Assembly (NCBI GenBank): GCA_026394075.1
Contig: JAPKYX010000088.1
Coordinates: forward strand, 1 to 39,017
DNA length: 39,017 bases
Reading direction: 5' to 3'
Origin: Acidobacteriota bacterium
GTDB lineage: Bacteria; Acidobacteriota; Terriglobia; Bryobacterales; Bryobacteraceae
In this document: positions 21,779 through 31,474 of the stretch, piece after piece
Position numbering within the stretch: the stretch's first letter is position 1
Layout: every line of letters begins with the position of its first letter
Notes under the pieces: generated by a model
Database searches by the model: none
What the model saw: the letters and a program-made list of their open reading frames with translations, nothing else
Told to the model about the DNA's origin: nothing
Translations under genes and position numbers: made by a program

Positions 21779-22138
21779 GTGGACATCTTTCCCAGGCTAC
21801 GTACGGATGCGGTGACGCAGTATCCGTTTGAGCGCACGCATCGGTATGCCACCGAGGTGATGCGATTCGTCGATGGCAGTGAGCAACGGTTTCGCCAGCG
21901 GGGACGGCCGATGCAGGAGTGGGCCGTGGAGCTGGATTTGCTTGATGCCGGTGAACTGCACCGGCTGAGGGAGTTCTGGGTGGCGATGGCGGGCAAGGCG
22001 GGGCTGTTCACGTTTCACGATCCTTGGGATGGAATCGATTACCCAGATTGTCAGTTTGTGAGCGATTCGGCCGTGTTCCAGATGAACGCTGAGATGCGGG
22101 GGATGACTAAGTTGAGAATCCGGCGGTTGGTGTCATGA
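21779..22138 (+). CDS. Distal tail protein, DUF2460-like, short copy
   Basis: A 119-residue protein (GTG start) with the layout FPRLRTDAVTQYPF ... WAVELDLLDAGELHRLREFWVAMAGKAGLFTFHDPWDG, matching the pattern of minor tail proteins at the tail tip (DUF2460-like; corresponding genes lie before the hub in gene transfer agents and siphophages). It shares this layout with the N-terminal half of the next gene, suggesting tandem duplication. It starts two bases after the tape-measure-like gene and its stop overlaps the next start (ATGA). Family name is from pattern memory, not a search. Confidence 0.6.
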   Translation: MDIFPRLRTDAVTQYPFERTHRYATEVMRFVDGSEQRFRQRGRPMQEWAVELDLLDAGELHRLREFWVAMAGKAGLFTFHDPWDGIDYPDCQFVSDSAVFQMNAEMRGMTKLRIRRLVS

Positions 22139-22929: not shown

Positions 22930-25900
22930 ATGAGCATCTACACGATTAAGGAACAGGCTACGCCTGATACACCCATCCTGCTTTTTGAGTGCCGTTTGGC
23001 CAATGGAGCGGTGGAGCAGTGGGCGACGCACCGGGTGCGCGTTGGGGGCAAGGATTTTGAGGCCCTGGTGCTGGGGCACAATCTGTTTGAGGTGGGCGGT
23101 GGTGAGGACGGTGCGGAGGGGTTCTCCCGCATTGCGTTGACTCTCGCCAATGCAGATTCTCATTTCTCGCAGATTGAGCGCAATGGAGGCATCAAGGGCG
23201 CCCGACTTACGGTGAGCTTTGTGTTCTATGACCTGAAGGCGGATGTTGCGACCACCGCTCCGACGGTACTTTTCCGCGGCACGGCCAATCCGCCGGAGGA
23301 GTGTAGTGAGGCGCGATTCCGTGTCTCGTTCACCAGCAGATTGAACCTGAGCCGGATGCTGTTGCCAGCTGTCCGCATTCAGCGGCGATGCCCGTGGATG
23401 TTTCCGCGCACGGCGACGGAACGTCAGGAGGCCGTGAGCGGGCTTGACCGGGGTGCGTACTCTCCCTTTTTCCGCTGTGGCTACTCACCGGACCAAACTG
23501 GGGGCAGCGGCACGATGGTGGGGAACACTCCTTTCACGGCCTGCGACTACACGCGCACGCAATGCGAGGAACGCGGCATGTTCCGGCAGGATAATCAGGG
23601 CCGGGTTACGCGGCGGTTCGGGGGGCAGGAGTTTGTTCCGGCGAGCACGCTGGTGCGAGGCCATGGCGAGAGTGGCCGGCATGTTTCAATCCCGGAAGAG
23701 AACCAGGGCCGTTACAACGATTTCGTGCCGATGGTCTATGGGACCGCTTTCTACCAACCTCCGGTGGTCTTCGCCTCTAACGACGGCAACCTCACGCGCA
23801 TGGAAGTGCTGTTGGGGATGGGCGAGATCGCGGCTGTGCTGAAGGTTGTGGTGAACGGGTTTGAGATTCCGGCGGGACAGGCCGGTGCGAACATGACGGG
23901 CACGGGGTGGTTCAACCTGGTTAGCAATGGGAACCGCACCGGGGAGTTCAATGCCGACTACTCCACGGGATCTGGCCAGCCGTTGGGCGACCCATACGGT
24001 TCAATGGCGTACTTGTCCGTGGTTGTCCCGAATCGCATCAATGATGGCCGGTCGCTACCGAAGGTGGAAGTGCTGCTCCAGGGGCTGCGCGTCTCAACCT
24101 TCAATGGGGCGGGGAACTATGCCGGCGAAGCATTCTCGAGCAATCCGGCGTGGGTGTTGCTGGACGTACTTCGGCGATGTGGATGGGATCATGACGAGCT
24201 TGACCTGGTCAGCTTTGCCCAGGCGGCGGCGTACTGTGACGAGCCGCTAGTCTCGACAGACCTGAACGGCAATATTCAGAACATCAAGCGCTATGAGTGC
24301 AACCTGGTGCTGCGCCGACGCCGCAGTGCCGCAGATGTCGTGCGTGGCATCCGGGCGTCTTCCGCGCTGTACCTTACGTACGGGGCTGAAGGTAAGCTTC
24401 ATCTCCGCGTGGAGGCGGGACTGGCCCAGCAGCAGCCGCTGGCTCCGCTGGGGACCAACGCGACGGGTCCGCTGGGAAGTGGATGGCCAGCTTACGAGTT
24501 TGGCGATGGAAGTTACGGCTTATCGGGTATCTTGCGCCGTGACAATGGCGATCCGGCGATTCACTTGTACTCGCGGAGCACGGCCGATTCACCCAACAGG
24601 ATCAGCGTCGAGTTCCAGGATGCGTTCAACGACTATCAGCAGGACAGTGTGTCCCTTATCGATCCGGACGACGTGATCCGCGCGGGCCAGGAAGTGGCGG
24701 CCACCCTGAGTGCCGAAGGGATCCCTAACATCAACCAGGCCTTGCGAATTGCCCGGCTGCAATTGAACCGCTCGACCAACGGCAACACGTACGTTCAGTT
24801 CGAGACCAGCATGCGGGGATTGGGTTTGCGTCCTGGTGATCTGATCACGCTGACGTATCTGAAAGAGGGACTCGACCGGCAGTTGTTCCGCGTGCAGCGG
24901 ATCGCTCCCGGATTGAATTTTGCGCGCGCAACCATTACCGCGCAGATCCACGATGAGGCTTGGTATTCGGCGACTGCTTCCACCACGTTGGGCCGCAGAC
25001 GCCGCCGGGCTGCGAGCACCGGTGTGCCGAGGCCGCTAGTGGGGAACGTGATCGATGGCGGTGGGCGATCACAATTTGGCATCACGGAGTCTGCCAATGC
25101 GGGAACCGACGGTTCCGCCACGGTGGCGTTGACCGTGGGTTTCGCTCCGCCGGCGGCGGTGCTGTCCGGGCGCGCATCGATTCCGATCATCAGTTTCACC
25201 ACGCAGGTGGATTCCACGGGCGGACAACTGGCGGGTCCGCGGTCGCTCTACTATGCGGTGGCGGGAGTGGATGCTGACGGGCGTGAGAGCGATCTGTCGT
25301 TTGTGGTTCACGCCAGCATTCCCGCTAGCGCTAGCGCTGCCAGTGTCACGCTGAAGGGGCTCAGCTTCGACCCGCAGACCGCGAGTTTCCATGTCTATCG
25401 CGGACCGAACCCGCAGCAGCTTCAGCGAATCGCCACCGGCGTACCGCCGGCCACGCAGTTTGTTGATCCGGGTTTGGCGACCCAGGTAACTCCGGCTCCC
25501 GACGAAAGCTATGACCATGCCAACTTCTATTGGCGGCTGGAACTGGTGCCGGAAACCGCGGTGACAGTGGCCACGCCGACGACGGCCGGCAATGCCGCAC
25601 TAGCTTTGCTGACCAACGAGTTTCGCGGTGCCGTGGTGCGCATCACGGAAGGGAGGGGCGCGGATCAGGAGCGCGTCGTGATCGCTAACGACGCCACGAC
25701 GTTCGCTGTCAATCTGCCCTGGACCATCGTTCCGGATGCGACCAGCAGGATGACAGTGGCGGAAGCTGCCTGGCGGTTTGGGGCGACGACCCGCTCCGAT
25801 CGCGCCGTGTTTGAGGTGCCAAACCGGCAACACGCCACCGTGGAGATTACGGGGCGTTCCGCGAATGTCCGCGATGAAGAGAGCGAGCCGGCATTGGCTC

Positions 25901-26844
25901 CGCTGACACGCTGGCTGATCGGCGGCAGTGCCGGAAACGGGCTGGATCTTGAGGTTGCGCCGGAGCCCTTCTTTGGTCTTTCCACGATGGGCACGGGCGG
26001 TGTAGATGTCTTGAGCGTGGGGTTTGCTGACCTGGCGAATACTCGCTCTGCCACGGCGGCGACGCTGACGCTTCACTACTGGGATGAGATGGCCAGCCCC
26101 AGCCTCTTTGCCTTGAGCACGGGCCTGACGGCGGGAGCGACTCAGGTTCCCCTCAACAGGGCCGCGATCGCGGTTCCAGGTGCGTTGATCCAGGTGGATG
26201 GTGAAGTGATGCAGGTGGAAGAGGTGTTGAGCAACGCCTACCGCGTGACTCGTGCTGTCTCGCAGACTACCGCCGTGCCCCACTCGTCTTCGTCGGCCGT
26301 CTACCACCTGAAGCGGCATGTGGTCGTCATCCCCTTCGCCCGGGACTTCTTTGGCAGTCCCGCCAGCGGGAGCTTCTCGTACTCCATCTTCCTGCCCAAT
26401 GTTCGGATCGCCGCGGCCGACATGGTGGTGACGAACTCTCGCGGGGATAGTCCGGTCTCCCGCCGGGGTTTCACATTCAATGTCGAGCAGGGGCTTCGAA
26501 CGTTGAGTGGGGGGCAATTGGCGCTTCAAGTGGACGGCTACCTGGCGGTCCAGTCTTCGGCCGTCACACCGGTTGTGGTCAGTGAGGGTCGCGCAGTGCG
26601 GGACATCTTCGCCGTGGTGGCAGAGGCGCCGATGGGGCAACCGGCCGTTGCTCGCTTGAGGCGCAATGGCCAGATACTCTGCGACCTCACGATTCCGGCA
26701 GGGGCGAAGATCTCCAATGTCGTCGACGGCTTCGGGCTACCGCCCTTGACGGAGATGACGCAGTTGGGGCTGGACATCATCGCGGTGCCGCCAGCAAGCG
26801 ACGGTGCACCGGGCCGCGACCTGACCGTCACCATCCGACTCTAG
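22930..26844 (+). CDS. Giant tail hub / host-specificity protein (gpL-gpJ-like fusion)
   Basis: A 1304-residue tail-tip protein. Residues about 1-230 resemble the gpL/DUF2163-type tip protein, with Cys154, Cys183, Cys205 and Cys212 spaced like the iron-sulfur-binding cysteines of lambda gpL. Residues about 250-700 resemble the hub/gpJ region (VPMVYGTA, WVLLDVLRRCGWDHDELD, LRRRRSAADVVRGIRASSALYLTYGAEGKLHLRV, LGLRPGDLITLTYLKEGLDRQLFRVQRI). Residues about 740-860 and 1000-1200 are beta-rich, with an Fn3/Ig-like segment (YYAVAGVDADGRESDLS ... FHVYRGPNP). It ends with repeated-looking beta structure that could contact the host. The fused layout parallels the large hub proteins of gene transfer agents. 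It is the last gene of the cluster. Confidence 0.75.
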   Translation: MSIYTIKEQATPDTPILLFECRLANGAVEQWATHRVRVGGKDFEALVLGHNLFEVGGGEDGAEGFSRIALTLANADSHFSQIERNGGIKGARLTVSFVFYDLKADVATTAPTVLFRGTANPPEECSEARFRVSFTSRLNLSRMLLPAVRIQRRCPWMFPRTATERQEAVSGLDRGAYSPFFRCGYSPDQTGGSGTMVGNTPFTACDYTRTQCEERGMFRQDNQGRVTRRFGGQEFVPASTLVRGHGESGRHVSIPEENQGRYNDFVPMVYGTAFYQPPVVFASNDGNLTRMEVLLGMGEIAAVLKVVVNGFEIPAGQAGANMTGTGWFNLVSNGNRTGEFNADYSTGSGQPLGDPYGSMAYLSVVVPNRINDGRSLPKVEVLLQGLRVSTFNGAGNYAGEAFSSNPAWVLLDVLRRCGWDHDELDLVSFAQAAAYCDEPLVSTDLNGNIQNIKRYECNLVLRRRRSAADVVRGIRASSALYLTYGAEGKLHLRVEAGLAQQQPLAPLGTNATGPLGSGWPAYEFGDGSYGLSGILRRDNGDPAIHLYSRSTADSPNRISVEFQDAFNDYQQDSVSLIDPDDVIRAGQEVAATLSAEGIPNINQALRIARLQLNRSTNGNTYVQFETSMRGLGLRPGDLITLTYLKEGLDRQLFRVQRIAPGLNFARATITAQIHDEAWYSATASTTLGRRRRRAASTGVPRPLVGNVIDGGGRSQFGITESANAGTDGSATVALTVGFAPPAAVLSGRASIPIISFTTQVDSTGGQLAGPRSLYYAVAGVDADGRESDLSFVVHASIPASASAASVTLKGLSFDPQTASFHVYRGPNPQQLQRIATGVPPATQFVDPGLATQVTPAPDESYDHANFYWRLELVPETAVTVATPTTAGNAALALLTNEFRGAVVRITEGRGADQERVVIANDATTFAVNLPWTIVPDATSRMTVAEAAWRFGATTRSDRAVFEVPNRQHATVEITGRSANVRDEESEPALAPLTRWLIGGSAGNGLDLEVAPEPFFGLSTMGTGGVDVLSVGFADLANTRSATAATLTLHYWDEMASPSLFALSTGLTAGATQVPLNRAAIAVPGALIQVDGEVMQVEEVLSNAYRVTRAVSQTTAVPHSSSSAVYHLKRHVVVIPFARDFFGSPASGSFSYSIFLPNVRIAAADMVVTNSRGDSPVSRRGFTFNVEQGLRTLSGGQLALQVDGYLAVQSSAVTPVVVSEGRAVRDIFAVVAEAPMGQPAVARLRRNGQILCDLTIPAGAKISNVVDGFGLPPLTEMTQLGLDIIAVPPASDGAPGRDLTVTIRL

Positions 26845-26893
26845 ACAACCTGATTCGCGCGCAGCCACGTGGGAGCGATACAGTCGTTCTTGC

Positions 26894-28024
26894 GTGGTTG
26901 CTCTCGATCAGGTCTCGAAAATCTTCCCCCTCTACGGCCGTCCCACTGACCGGCTGCTGGAATCTCTCCCCTTTGCTCCCAACCTCCACGAAGACTTTCA
27001 GGCTCTTCGCGAGATCACACTCCAGATTGACCCCGGCCAGACCTTTGCGCTGATTGGGCCCAACGGGTCCGGCAAAAGCACTTTGCTGCAGATCATCGCT
27101 GGAATTCTCGAACCCACCTCTGGAACGATCCGGCGCGAAGGTCGAGTGGCCGCGCTGCTTGAGCTGGGGGCCGGCTTCAGCCCTGAATTCACGGGCCGCG
27201 AGAATGTTTACCTGACCAGTGAACTGATGGGCTTCTCCCGCCGCGAAACCGACCAGCGGCTGCCGGAGATCGCCGCATTCGCCGATATTGGCGCTTTTCT
27301 CGATCGCCCGGTGAAGGAGTACTCCAGTGGCATGTACGTGCGCTTGGCCTTTGCCGCTGCGGTCCATGTTGATCCGGATATCCTGATCGTGGATGAGGCC
27401 TTGGCCGTTGGTGATGTGCGTTTTGCGAATCGCTGTATGCGCAAGTTTGAAGAGTTCAAGCAGCGCGGCAAGACGATCTTGTTTGTCTCGCATGACCTGG
27501 GACTGGTGAAGCGGCTGGCGGATCAGGCGGCACTGTTGATTCAAGGCTCAGTGGATATGCTGGGGGCACCGCATGATGTCGTGAACCGCTACGTGGGCTT
27601 GGCTCTTGCCGGCGACCACCGGCAGGACGATCAAGGGTCACGGCACGGCGATGGAACCAGCCAGATCAGACGGGTTCGACTATTGGACCAGGCGGGACGC
27701 GAGACGGCCCTTGTGCGCAGTGGCGACGTGCTGGTGATCGAAATCACGGTCGACGTCCAACGAGCCTGCAGTAGCCTGGTGGCCGGTATCCTGATTCGGA
27801 GCCGCCTGGGGATGGATGTCTACGGCACCAACTCGCAGGTGGAGGGTCTGGCGATCGGTCCGCTGAACGCCGGCGATCAATTGGCCATCCGGTTCACCCT
27901 TCCTTGCGCGCTGACACGCCAGGAGTACAGCCTGACGGTGGCCACCCAGCACTCGGTGATCGATGCCCGTGATCTCGCGGGAGTCGCTAATCTGGAAGCG
28001 AAGGTGGCATGGAACAAACTCTAA
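26894..28024 (+). CDS. ABC transporter ATPase, Wzt-type polysaccharide exporter subunit
   Basis: ATP-binding subunit of 376 residues, of the class that powers export of O-antigen or teichoic-acid-like polymers. Walker A GPNGSGKST at 55-63, signature YSSGMYVR at 143-150, Walker B ILIVDEALAVGD at 163-174, and a His switch SHD. Residues about 240-370 are a beta-rich C-terminal domain of the Wzt type, which reads the polymer end. No Wzm-type permease lies nearby. It begins with GTG 49 bp after the phage hub gene and its 3' end overlaps the M24 peptidase start by 16 bp; the last residues (EAKVAWNKL) differ from the usual Wzt ending, so slight truncation is possible. Confidence 0.88.
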   Translation: MVALDQVSKIFPLYGRPTDRLLESLPFAPNLHEDFQALREITLQIDPGQTFALIGPNGSGKSTLLQIIAGILEPTSGTIRREGRVAALLELGAGFSPEFTGRENVYLTSELMGFSRRETDQRLPEIAAFADIGAFLDRPVKEYSSGMYVRLAFAAAVHVDPDILIVDEALAVGDVRFANRCMRKFEEFKQRGKTILFVSHDLGLVKRLADQAALLIQGSVDMLGAPHDVVNRYVGLALAGDHRQDDQGSRHGDGTSQIRRVRLLDQAGRETALVRSGDVLVIEITVDVQRACSSLVAGILIRSRLGMDVYGTNSQVEGLAIGPLNAGDQLAIRFTLPCALTRQEYSLTVATQHSVIDARDLAGVANLEAKVAWNKL

Positions 28025-30812: not shown

Positions 30813-30884
30813 TCAACTCCCCGCTCAGTCGCGCTTCCCGAACGTGGCCAGGCTTCGTGCTAGTCTTTCATTCGAGGAGGGTTT

Positions 30885-31409
30885 ATGACTCGACGTATTA
30901 TCCTCGCCACTGCAGCCACGGCTGCGGTAGCGATGGCTCAAGCACCCGCCGTCAAGCCCAGCGTCAAAATTGGCGATATGGCTCCCGATTTTGAACTTTC
31001 GGGCACTGATGGCAAGAAGCACAAGCTGAGCGCCTACCGCGGCAAAACCGTGGTCCTGGCATTCTTCCCGGCCGCCTTCACCGGTGGTTGAACGAAGGAA
31101 ATGACGGCGTACCAGGCTGGTATCGCCAAATTTCAGGAAGCTGGCGCGGCAGTTTTTGGCATCTCAACAGATTCGCTCCCCAGTCTCGGCCATTGGGCCA
31201 AGGAGCATATCAATGCAACATTTCCTATGCTGTCCGATTTCAGCACTCGCGACACGGTGAAGGCCTACGGCATCATGCTCCCCAATGGCATGTCGGCCCG
31301 CTTCACCTTTGTCGTCGATGCTGATGGCAAGGTGCAGCATATTGATGAGGCTGCTGCGGCCATTGACGTCACAGGTGCCGTCACGGCCTGCAGCCGGCTG
31401 AAGCACTAG
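30885..31409 (+). CDS. Secreted peroxiredoxin, probable selenoprotein (TGA = Sec69)
   Basis: Thiol/selenol peroxidase of the AhpC/TSA type, 174 residues when TGA at 31089-31091 is read through. The N-terminus ([20 protein letters not shown]) is a signal peptide. The peroxidatic motif is Pro62-x3-Thr66-x2-Sec69 ([14 protein letters not shown]), where the family has Cys. The frame continues through [24 protein letters not shown], the conserved Arg (SARFTFVVD) and C-terminal Cys169, a possible resolving residue and the only Cys. A SECIS-like hairpin lies 15 bases after TGA. GAGGAGG four bases before the ATG is a strong start. A terminator follows. Alternatives are a TGC/TGT to TGA nonsense change or an error; motif position and hairpin favour Sec. 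Expected role: peroxide detoxification in the envelope. Confidence 0.85.
31089..31091 (+). other. In-frame TGA at peroxidatic position (selenocysteine codon)
   Basis: TGA replaces the peroxidatic Cys codon in the peroxiredoxin frame; flanking codons give TGG-U-TKEM. Both sides of the frame align with one continuous family without a shift or gap. Confidence 0.8.
31106..31127 (+). promoter_or_regulatory. Bacterial SECIS-like hairpin
   Basis: Within the coding sequence, GGCGTACC (31106-31113) pairs with GGTA-T-CGCC (31119-31127) as eight base pairs with one bulged T around the loop AGGCT. The loop starts 22 bases after the TGA. Bacterial SECIS elements have a short stem, a bulged U and a small G-containing loop at about this distance (for example AGGUCU in E. 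coli fdhF), and are bound by SelB. Confidence 0.7.
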
Positions 31410-31434
31410 GAACATCTCATTACCGTGTGGGTGG

Positions 31435-31474
31435 TCGGCGGCTCAGGGCAACCTGATCCGCCGATTGCTTTTCT
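31435..31474 (+). terminator. Rho-independent terminator after peroxiredoxin
   Basis: A long stem (TCGGCGG at 31435-31441 with CCGCCGA at 31458-31464, and TCAGG at 31443-31447 with CCTGA at 31452-31456, one C/T mismatch between) closed by a GCAA tetraloop is followed by TTGCTTTTCT. It lies 25 bp after the peroxiredoxin stop. Confidence 0.8.

Follow-up and report, generated by a model that had tools for sequence, protein, structure and literature searches.

An apparent stop codon at the catalytic position of a Bryobacteraceae peroxiredoxin almost certainly encodes selenocysteine

The apparent stop codon within a peroxiredoxin gene, an antioxidant gene in the genome of a Bryobacteraceae soil bacterium, is almost certainly a selenocysteine (Sec) codon at the catalytic position of the enzyme. 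The gene lies in the window, the whole 39,017-nucleotide stretch of DNA that was analysed. Our overall reading, which we hold at a probability of about 96% from sequence comparisons, is that the product is a peroxiredoxin with the AhpE/Bcp fold, probably exported, in which Sec69 would be inserted through SelB and a SECIS hairpin and resolved as a Sec-Cys couple, export and chemistry being the parts we infer. The involvement of SelB is suggested by the Sec machinery of the genome, the SECIS and the conservation of both codon and hairpin.

The peroxiredoxin frame and the Sec machinery

Translation of the gene meets one internal stop between its ATG and its TAG, the TGA at residue 69 (Table 1). 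Counted as a residue, the TGA falls within a match to the Pfam AhpC-TSA profile (PF00578, E 4e-36, residues 29-153), and the product has both the PxxxTxxC/U motif and the conserved Arg of peroxiredoxins; in a 45-row alignment residue 69 and R139 are invariant, and P62 and T66 nearly so. The first-pass annotation, made from the sequence alone, had described a peroxiredoxin frame interrupted only by a TGA at the position of the catalytic Cys, as we confirmed, and had let the frame run to 31474, which overshoots the TAG that closes it at 31409. An AlphaFold2 model of the protein has a mean pLDDT of 90.1, with values below 50 at residues 1-19, and its last helix (residues 163-172) contains Cys169.

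Table 1. Features of the peroxiredoxin gene, in positions of the window
Feature	Position	Strand	Details and evidence
Shine-Dalgarno-like GAGGAGGG 5' of the ATG	30874..30881	+	by-eye reading
Selenoprotein peroxiredoxin frame (almost certain)	30885..31409	+	174 residues with Sec69; TAG 31407-31409; translation, Pfam, PDB matches, congener comparison
Signal-peptide-like N-terminal segment	30885..30938	+	18 residues; hydrophobic N-termini of homologues, pLDDT; putative cleavage after AMA
ACC GGT GGT directly 5' of the UGA	31080..31088	+	codon bias in Sec forms, absent from Cys forms
TGA, Sec codon (almost certain), peroxidatic position (residue 69)	31089..31091	+	translation, codon in homologues
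Bacterial SECIS hairpin, loop AGGCT	31106..31127	+	bulged T at 31123; folding, covariation, covariance model, published limits
Cys169 codon, sole other Cys	31389..31391	+	candidate resolving residue; translation, homologue alignment

The source genome (G000; 5.77 Mb in 302 contigs, 96.9% complete) has profile matches to SelA (473.6 bits), SelB (339.6 bits) and SelD (351.0 bits), together with two tRNA-Sec genes of anticodon UCA, called as tRNA-SeC by ARAGORN. The first-pass annotation had proposed searching for selA, selB, selC and selD and had named a lack of selB or selC as grounds against Sec; all four are present. The selD gene itself has an internal TGA, in AAG*ASKLSP, with a GGU-loop hairpin after it. 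Together, the UCA tRNA called as tRNA-SeC, the SelA, SelB and SelD genes and the TGA within selD make it very improbable that the UGA of the peroxiredoxin is decoded as Cys or Trp, a reading for which the presence of a second tRNA-Sec and a second SelA in this genome counts.

This second pair, the tRNA-Sec (64.3 bits, 24545-24636) and the SelA (26329-27426), lies in the last 5.4 kb of contig C99 (L106, L261). The second SelA is 43-45% identical to the SelA of the source genome and to those of G153 and G154, two genomes with one tRNA-Sec and one strong SelA each. Contamination was first suspected from tetranucleotides, since the right part of C99 has a correlation to the window of 0.911 compared to 0.96-0.97 for other stretches. 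Identity to the congener G154 is 92-96% across the left part of the contig, to roughly position 21,980, making an insertion or a chimeric contig likelier than contamination, and the second selC/selA pair is possibly an acquired Sec cassette or the product of such a chimeric contig.

We also noted, in further support of Sec decoding, three more frames with one internal TGA each among the 23 matches to the AhpC/TSA fold in the source genome. One encodes a YWUPYC protein (C253:17205-17606, L259), another a GSYTUPPF protein (C278:23766-24044, L260) whose motif we take to resemble that of deiodinase-like selenoproteins; hairpins with the loops GUG and GGU, respectively, follow them. The third is PrxQ-like, with DDTPGU (C146:11730-12089, L258), and no clean hairpin of that kind was found in its folded stretch.

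Sec and Cys forms across relatives

The best 80 of 280 loci from a contig scan were retained for codon reading, and the codon at residue 69 is TGA in 20, TGC in 43 and TGT in 17; thus the in-frame UGA stands where homologues have Cys. Within Bryobacteraceae, 235 of 237 genomes have a peroxiredoxin match at E 1e-10 or better. We read 130 loci base by base and removed five duplicate rows; the distinct family genes comprise 107 with TGA at the residue-69 codon, the window included, and 25 with Cys. In all 108 TGA rows (one a duplicate) the aligned stretch holds exactly one stop, at that codon.

The gene of a congener differs from that of the window at 37 of 525 bases but keeps the TGA, and the 42 bases from the TGA onward are identical. 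Codon differences between the two genes are 8 synonymous and 1 nonsynonymous upstream of the TGA and 25 synonymous and 1 nonsynonymous downstream, the latter ratio indicating that the readthrough product is under selection; on these counts the protein is preserved before as well as after the TGA. These comparisons bear on the possibility that the TGA arose by nonsense mutation, or is a sequencing error, in a Cys-peroxiredoxin gene that is decaying or misassembled. Translation with table 11 does split the frame in two, and a list of open reading frames of at least 80 amino acids gives its 3' part only (31101-31409). As the congener and another 105 distinct family genes have the same TGA, purifying selection acts beyond it and no TGA row has a second stop, we consider a mutation or error extremely unlikely. 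The first-pass annotation had looked to relatives for Cys at residue 69 and for a TGA conserved with the hairpin, as opposed to unrelated nonsense changes; Cys was found in other relatives, the TGA recurs in the congener and those 105 genes, and the hairpin core is shared by the Sec forms.

Among the matches listed, at least 121 genomes have the TGA form and 21 have Cys forms only, genomes with lower-ranking peroxiredoxin matches being in neither group. A strong selB or a tRNA-Sec was found in 119 of the 121 TGA-form genomes versus 15 of the 21 Cys-only genomes (Fisher p 1.2e-4), in a test that ignores shared ancestry and by a criterion adopted after the misses of selB alone were known. Strong selB alone, defined by a best E of about 1e-80 or better and present in 186 genomes (187 by the tally of the tool), did not separate the forms at the conventional level (104/121 versus 14/21, Fisher p 0.052). 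For two TGA-form genomes, G053 and G073 (79 and 80% complete), neither a strong selB nor a tRNA-Sec was found.

On a maximum-likelihood tree of 132 proteins, Sec and Cys must have interchanged at least 12 times, with 7 of these changes forced by well-supported branches, with a direction that is not readable from the tree. A single one of the 25 Cys genes, the TGC form L187 (G083:C18), keeps the hairpin core TACCAGGCTGGTA. Its retention in a TGC gene suggests that the core is a relict SECIS and that the change from Sec to Cys was recent. In two genomes, Sec and Cys peroxiredoxin genes lie side by side (G060:C135, L130; G123:C299, L138). Given the changes on one gene tree, these paired copies and the relict-hairpin form, Bryobacteraceae would, if our reading is true, be a natural series for studying the advantage of Sec over Cys and the decay of a SECIS. 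At least 121 of 237 sampled family genomes, counted by a TGA-containing match listed and with the position verified base by base in 107 genes, would then carry the Sec form of a probably extracytoplasmic peroxidase, and standard annotation would probably cut such genes in two.

TGA at the catalytic position was also seen in 17 loci for WTPVU peroxiredoxins in acidobacterial records (L032, L037, L038, L042-L044, L046, L047, L050, L051, L053, L054, L056-L058, L063, L074) and in two loci with FTGGU, L068 (Pirellulales) and L085 (Akkermansiaceae).

The SECIS hairpin and the codons around the UGA

Beginning at the 15th base past the TGA is the hairpin GGCGTACC-AGGCT-GGTA(T)CGCC, with 8 bp and one bulged T, exactly as first described; the fold of 31091-31131 agrees. 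The minimum free energy (MFE) of that fold is -12.0 kcal/mol (z -2.40, with 4 of 200 shuffles equally good), and it additionally pairs the A and U that close the AGGCU loop. Folding of this single sequence is modest evidence for a SECIS. The bulged base on the 3' arm, unlike the Escherichia coli fdhF element, counts against it. At the gathering threshold, the sole Rfam match in the window is to a tRNA (tRNA-Leu by a separate call), which is neutral on this point. PMC13188914 sets the limits of bacterial SECIS elements at a loop of 3-9 nt, a stem of 4-16 bp, a spacing of 16-37 nt and an MFE of -7.5 kcal/mol or lower; a G is among the first two loop bases, in most cases as N-G-G/U-N-N' with both N paired. 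The hairpin of the window is within these limits (A-GG-C-U loop, 8-bp stem, 22 nt from UGA to loop, -12.0 kcal/mol).

Comparative pairing across relatives provides what we regard as strong evidence for a SECIS. Pairing extends to 86.0% of cells in 65 diverged Sec elements, compared to 80.3% upon shuffling (0 of 500 shuffles as high) and at most 55.4% in slid controls, figures that related sequences can inflate and that take their structure from one of the 65. In six of the eight pairs both partners vary; additional pair types in the same elements are no more numerous than in shuffles (301 of 500 as high). Lower-stem pairs are often open in the Sec forms, being paired in 42 of 65 at columns 19/38 and in 35 of 65 at 21/36. 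All 105 distinct Sec sequences form the three core pairs, versus 7, 20 and 11 of 25 Cys sequences, and the loop starts with G followed by G or T in all 107 Sec rows. A near-invariant core with compensatory changes is thus common to the Sec forms and absent from most Cys forms. A covariance model built from the 65 elements, the window's own copy among them, scores 73.6 bits at 31089-31133, and the next-best place in the genome scores 15.2 bits. The six further places listed by the model (at most 15.2 bits) do not include the other candidate selenoprotein genes of the source genome, so the model is no general SECIS finder.

Constraint extends to the codons flanking the UGA. Where the usual amino acid is encoded, Sec forms precede the UGA with ACC (0.89), GGT (0.87) and GGT (0.83) and follow it with ACG (0.75), compared to ACC (0.52), GGC (0.71), GGC (0.48) and then ACC (0.52) as the matching codons of Cys forms and a pooled background of 0.19 for GGT. 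Further on, among Sec rows with Gly at +10 the codon is GGT in 102 of 103, versus 2 of 11 Cys rows, and all 79 Sec rows with Ala at +9 use GCT. We considered a mini-hairpin between ACC and GGU before the UGA, which has a mean probability of 0.067 (median 0.0), and protection of the SECIS core by GGT GGT, for which in-silico replacement with GGC GGC gives a mean core probability of 0.947 compared to 0.950 (a decrease in 10 and an increase in 13 of 106 sequences). With the mini-hairpin close to nil and the core hardly changed, neither explains the upstream bias.

The 17 more distant WTPVU peroxiredoxins lack the upstream bias. The codon before the TGA in 19 distant TGA genes is GTC in 10, GTT in 5 and GTA, GTG, GGG or GGA in one each; in the other TGA genes of the source genome it is GGT (the PrxQ-like gene and selD), ACT or TGG. 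We tentatively suggest, as a joint proposal that is doubtful at present, that ACC GGU GGU UGA ACG is part of the Sec-insertion signal of an exported enzyme whose Sec-Cys couple lies about 100 residues apart. With this bias, the idea of recoding signals beyond the SECIS has a concrete test case.

Neither the hairpin nor the codon constraint would have an explanation if translation truly ended at the UGA and the 3' part were made separately from the internal ATG at 31101, giving two polypeptides; this ATG begins 10 bases past the TGA and has AAGGA before it, but the split would cut the active-site motif and Met is found at that position in only 64 of 106 Sec rows, leaving such a split next to no chance.

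Predicted decoding, export and chemistry

With Sec as the preferred reading, a ribosome meeting the UGA at 31089 would insert Sec instead of terminating when SelB carrying Sec-tRNA(UCA) binds the hairpin. Reduction of peroxide by Sec69 of the mature enzyme would yield a selenenic acid, which may condense with Cys169 in the C-terminal helix to a Sec-Cys selenenylsulfide that some reductant would recycle. Cys169 had been singled out as the only other Cys of the protein, correctly, and a matching Cys is present in all homologues checked, at +95 to +107 in 108/108 Sec rows and 29/29 Cys rows (five duplicates included). Atypical 2-Cys peroxiredoxins of the Prx5 type have similar Cys spacing. The conserved Cys fits the selenenylsulfide route, short of proof, and as the partner is equally conserved in Cys forms it indicates nothing specific to Sec.

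The peroxiredoxin is probably exported, judging from its N-terminus. The N-termini of homologues are hydrophobic when start codons are chosen by script, and RRxhh, the minimal twin-arginine pattern, is found in the window protein and, with it counted, in 26 of 108 Sec rows. Nine neighbouring frames were scanned, of which two are without Pfam names and seven were named (a Wzt-like ABC transporter, an M24 peptidase, a GH31-like protein, a GAF-ANTAR regulator, an alpha/beta hydrolase and two MacB/FtsX permeases); no reductant for the peroxiredoxin is evident by Pfam among the nine.

Comparison with known peroxiredoxins

TxxU Sec-peroxiredoxins are a listed selenoprotein family in PMC13188914 and PMC9312934, both of which refer to Eubacterium acidaminophilum for the first such enzyme. 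In PMC1794560, 12 Sec-peroxiredoxins are tabulated, with Sec/Cys change events, and Acidobacteria are given four selenoproteins of three families. Like the TxxU Sec-peroxiredoxins, the window protein has the AhpC/TSA fold (PF00578), a peroxidatic Sec in PxxxTxxU and a SECIS just downstream; unlike them, it has a signal-like N-terminus and a C-terminal Cys at +100. It scores 69.4 bits against the NCBIfam PrxU equivalog NF040737, under the cut-off of 270.

The nearest solved fold, tied with other rows within 1 Z, is AhpE of Mycobacterium tuberculosis (5id2_D; Z 25.1, rmsd 1.6 over 150 residues, 33% identity), a Cys enzyme termed a 1-Cys peroxiredoxin in PDB titles, whereas the window protein combines Sec with a conserved Cys. 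The best PDB matches by sequence are the Bcp4-like 2ywn and 3hjp (Sulfolobus solfataricus), at E 3.5e-28 and 4.4e-23. PAAFT and TKEM are common to all three proteins; the position of Sec69 is Cys in 2ywn and Ser in the deposited 3hjp chain, and neither has the N-terminal extension, the alignments beginning at chain residues 4 and 2.

No paper title on a Sec-peroxiredoxin of Bryobacteraceae was found in open-licence PMC, which is weak evidence of absence. The protein is of a known kind, the TxxU Sec-peroxiredoxins, with a family-wide distribution in Bryobacteraceae that we did not find described in open-licence PMC. Less ordinary are the spread of the Sec form in the family, the at least 12 Sec/Cys changes, the Cys form with a hairpin core and the unexplained upstream codon bias.
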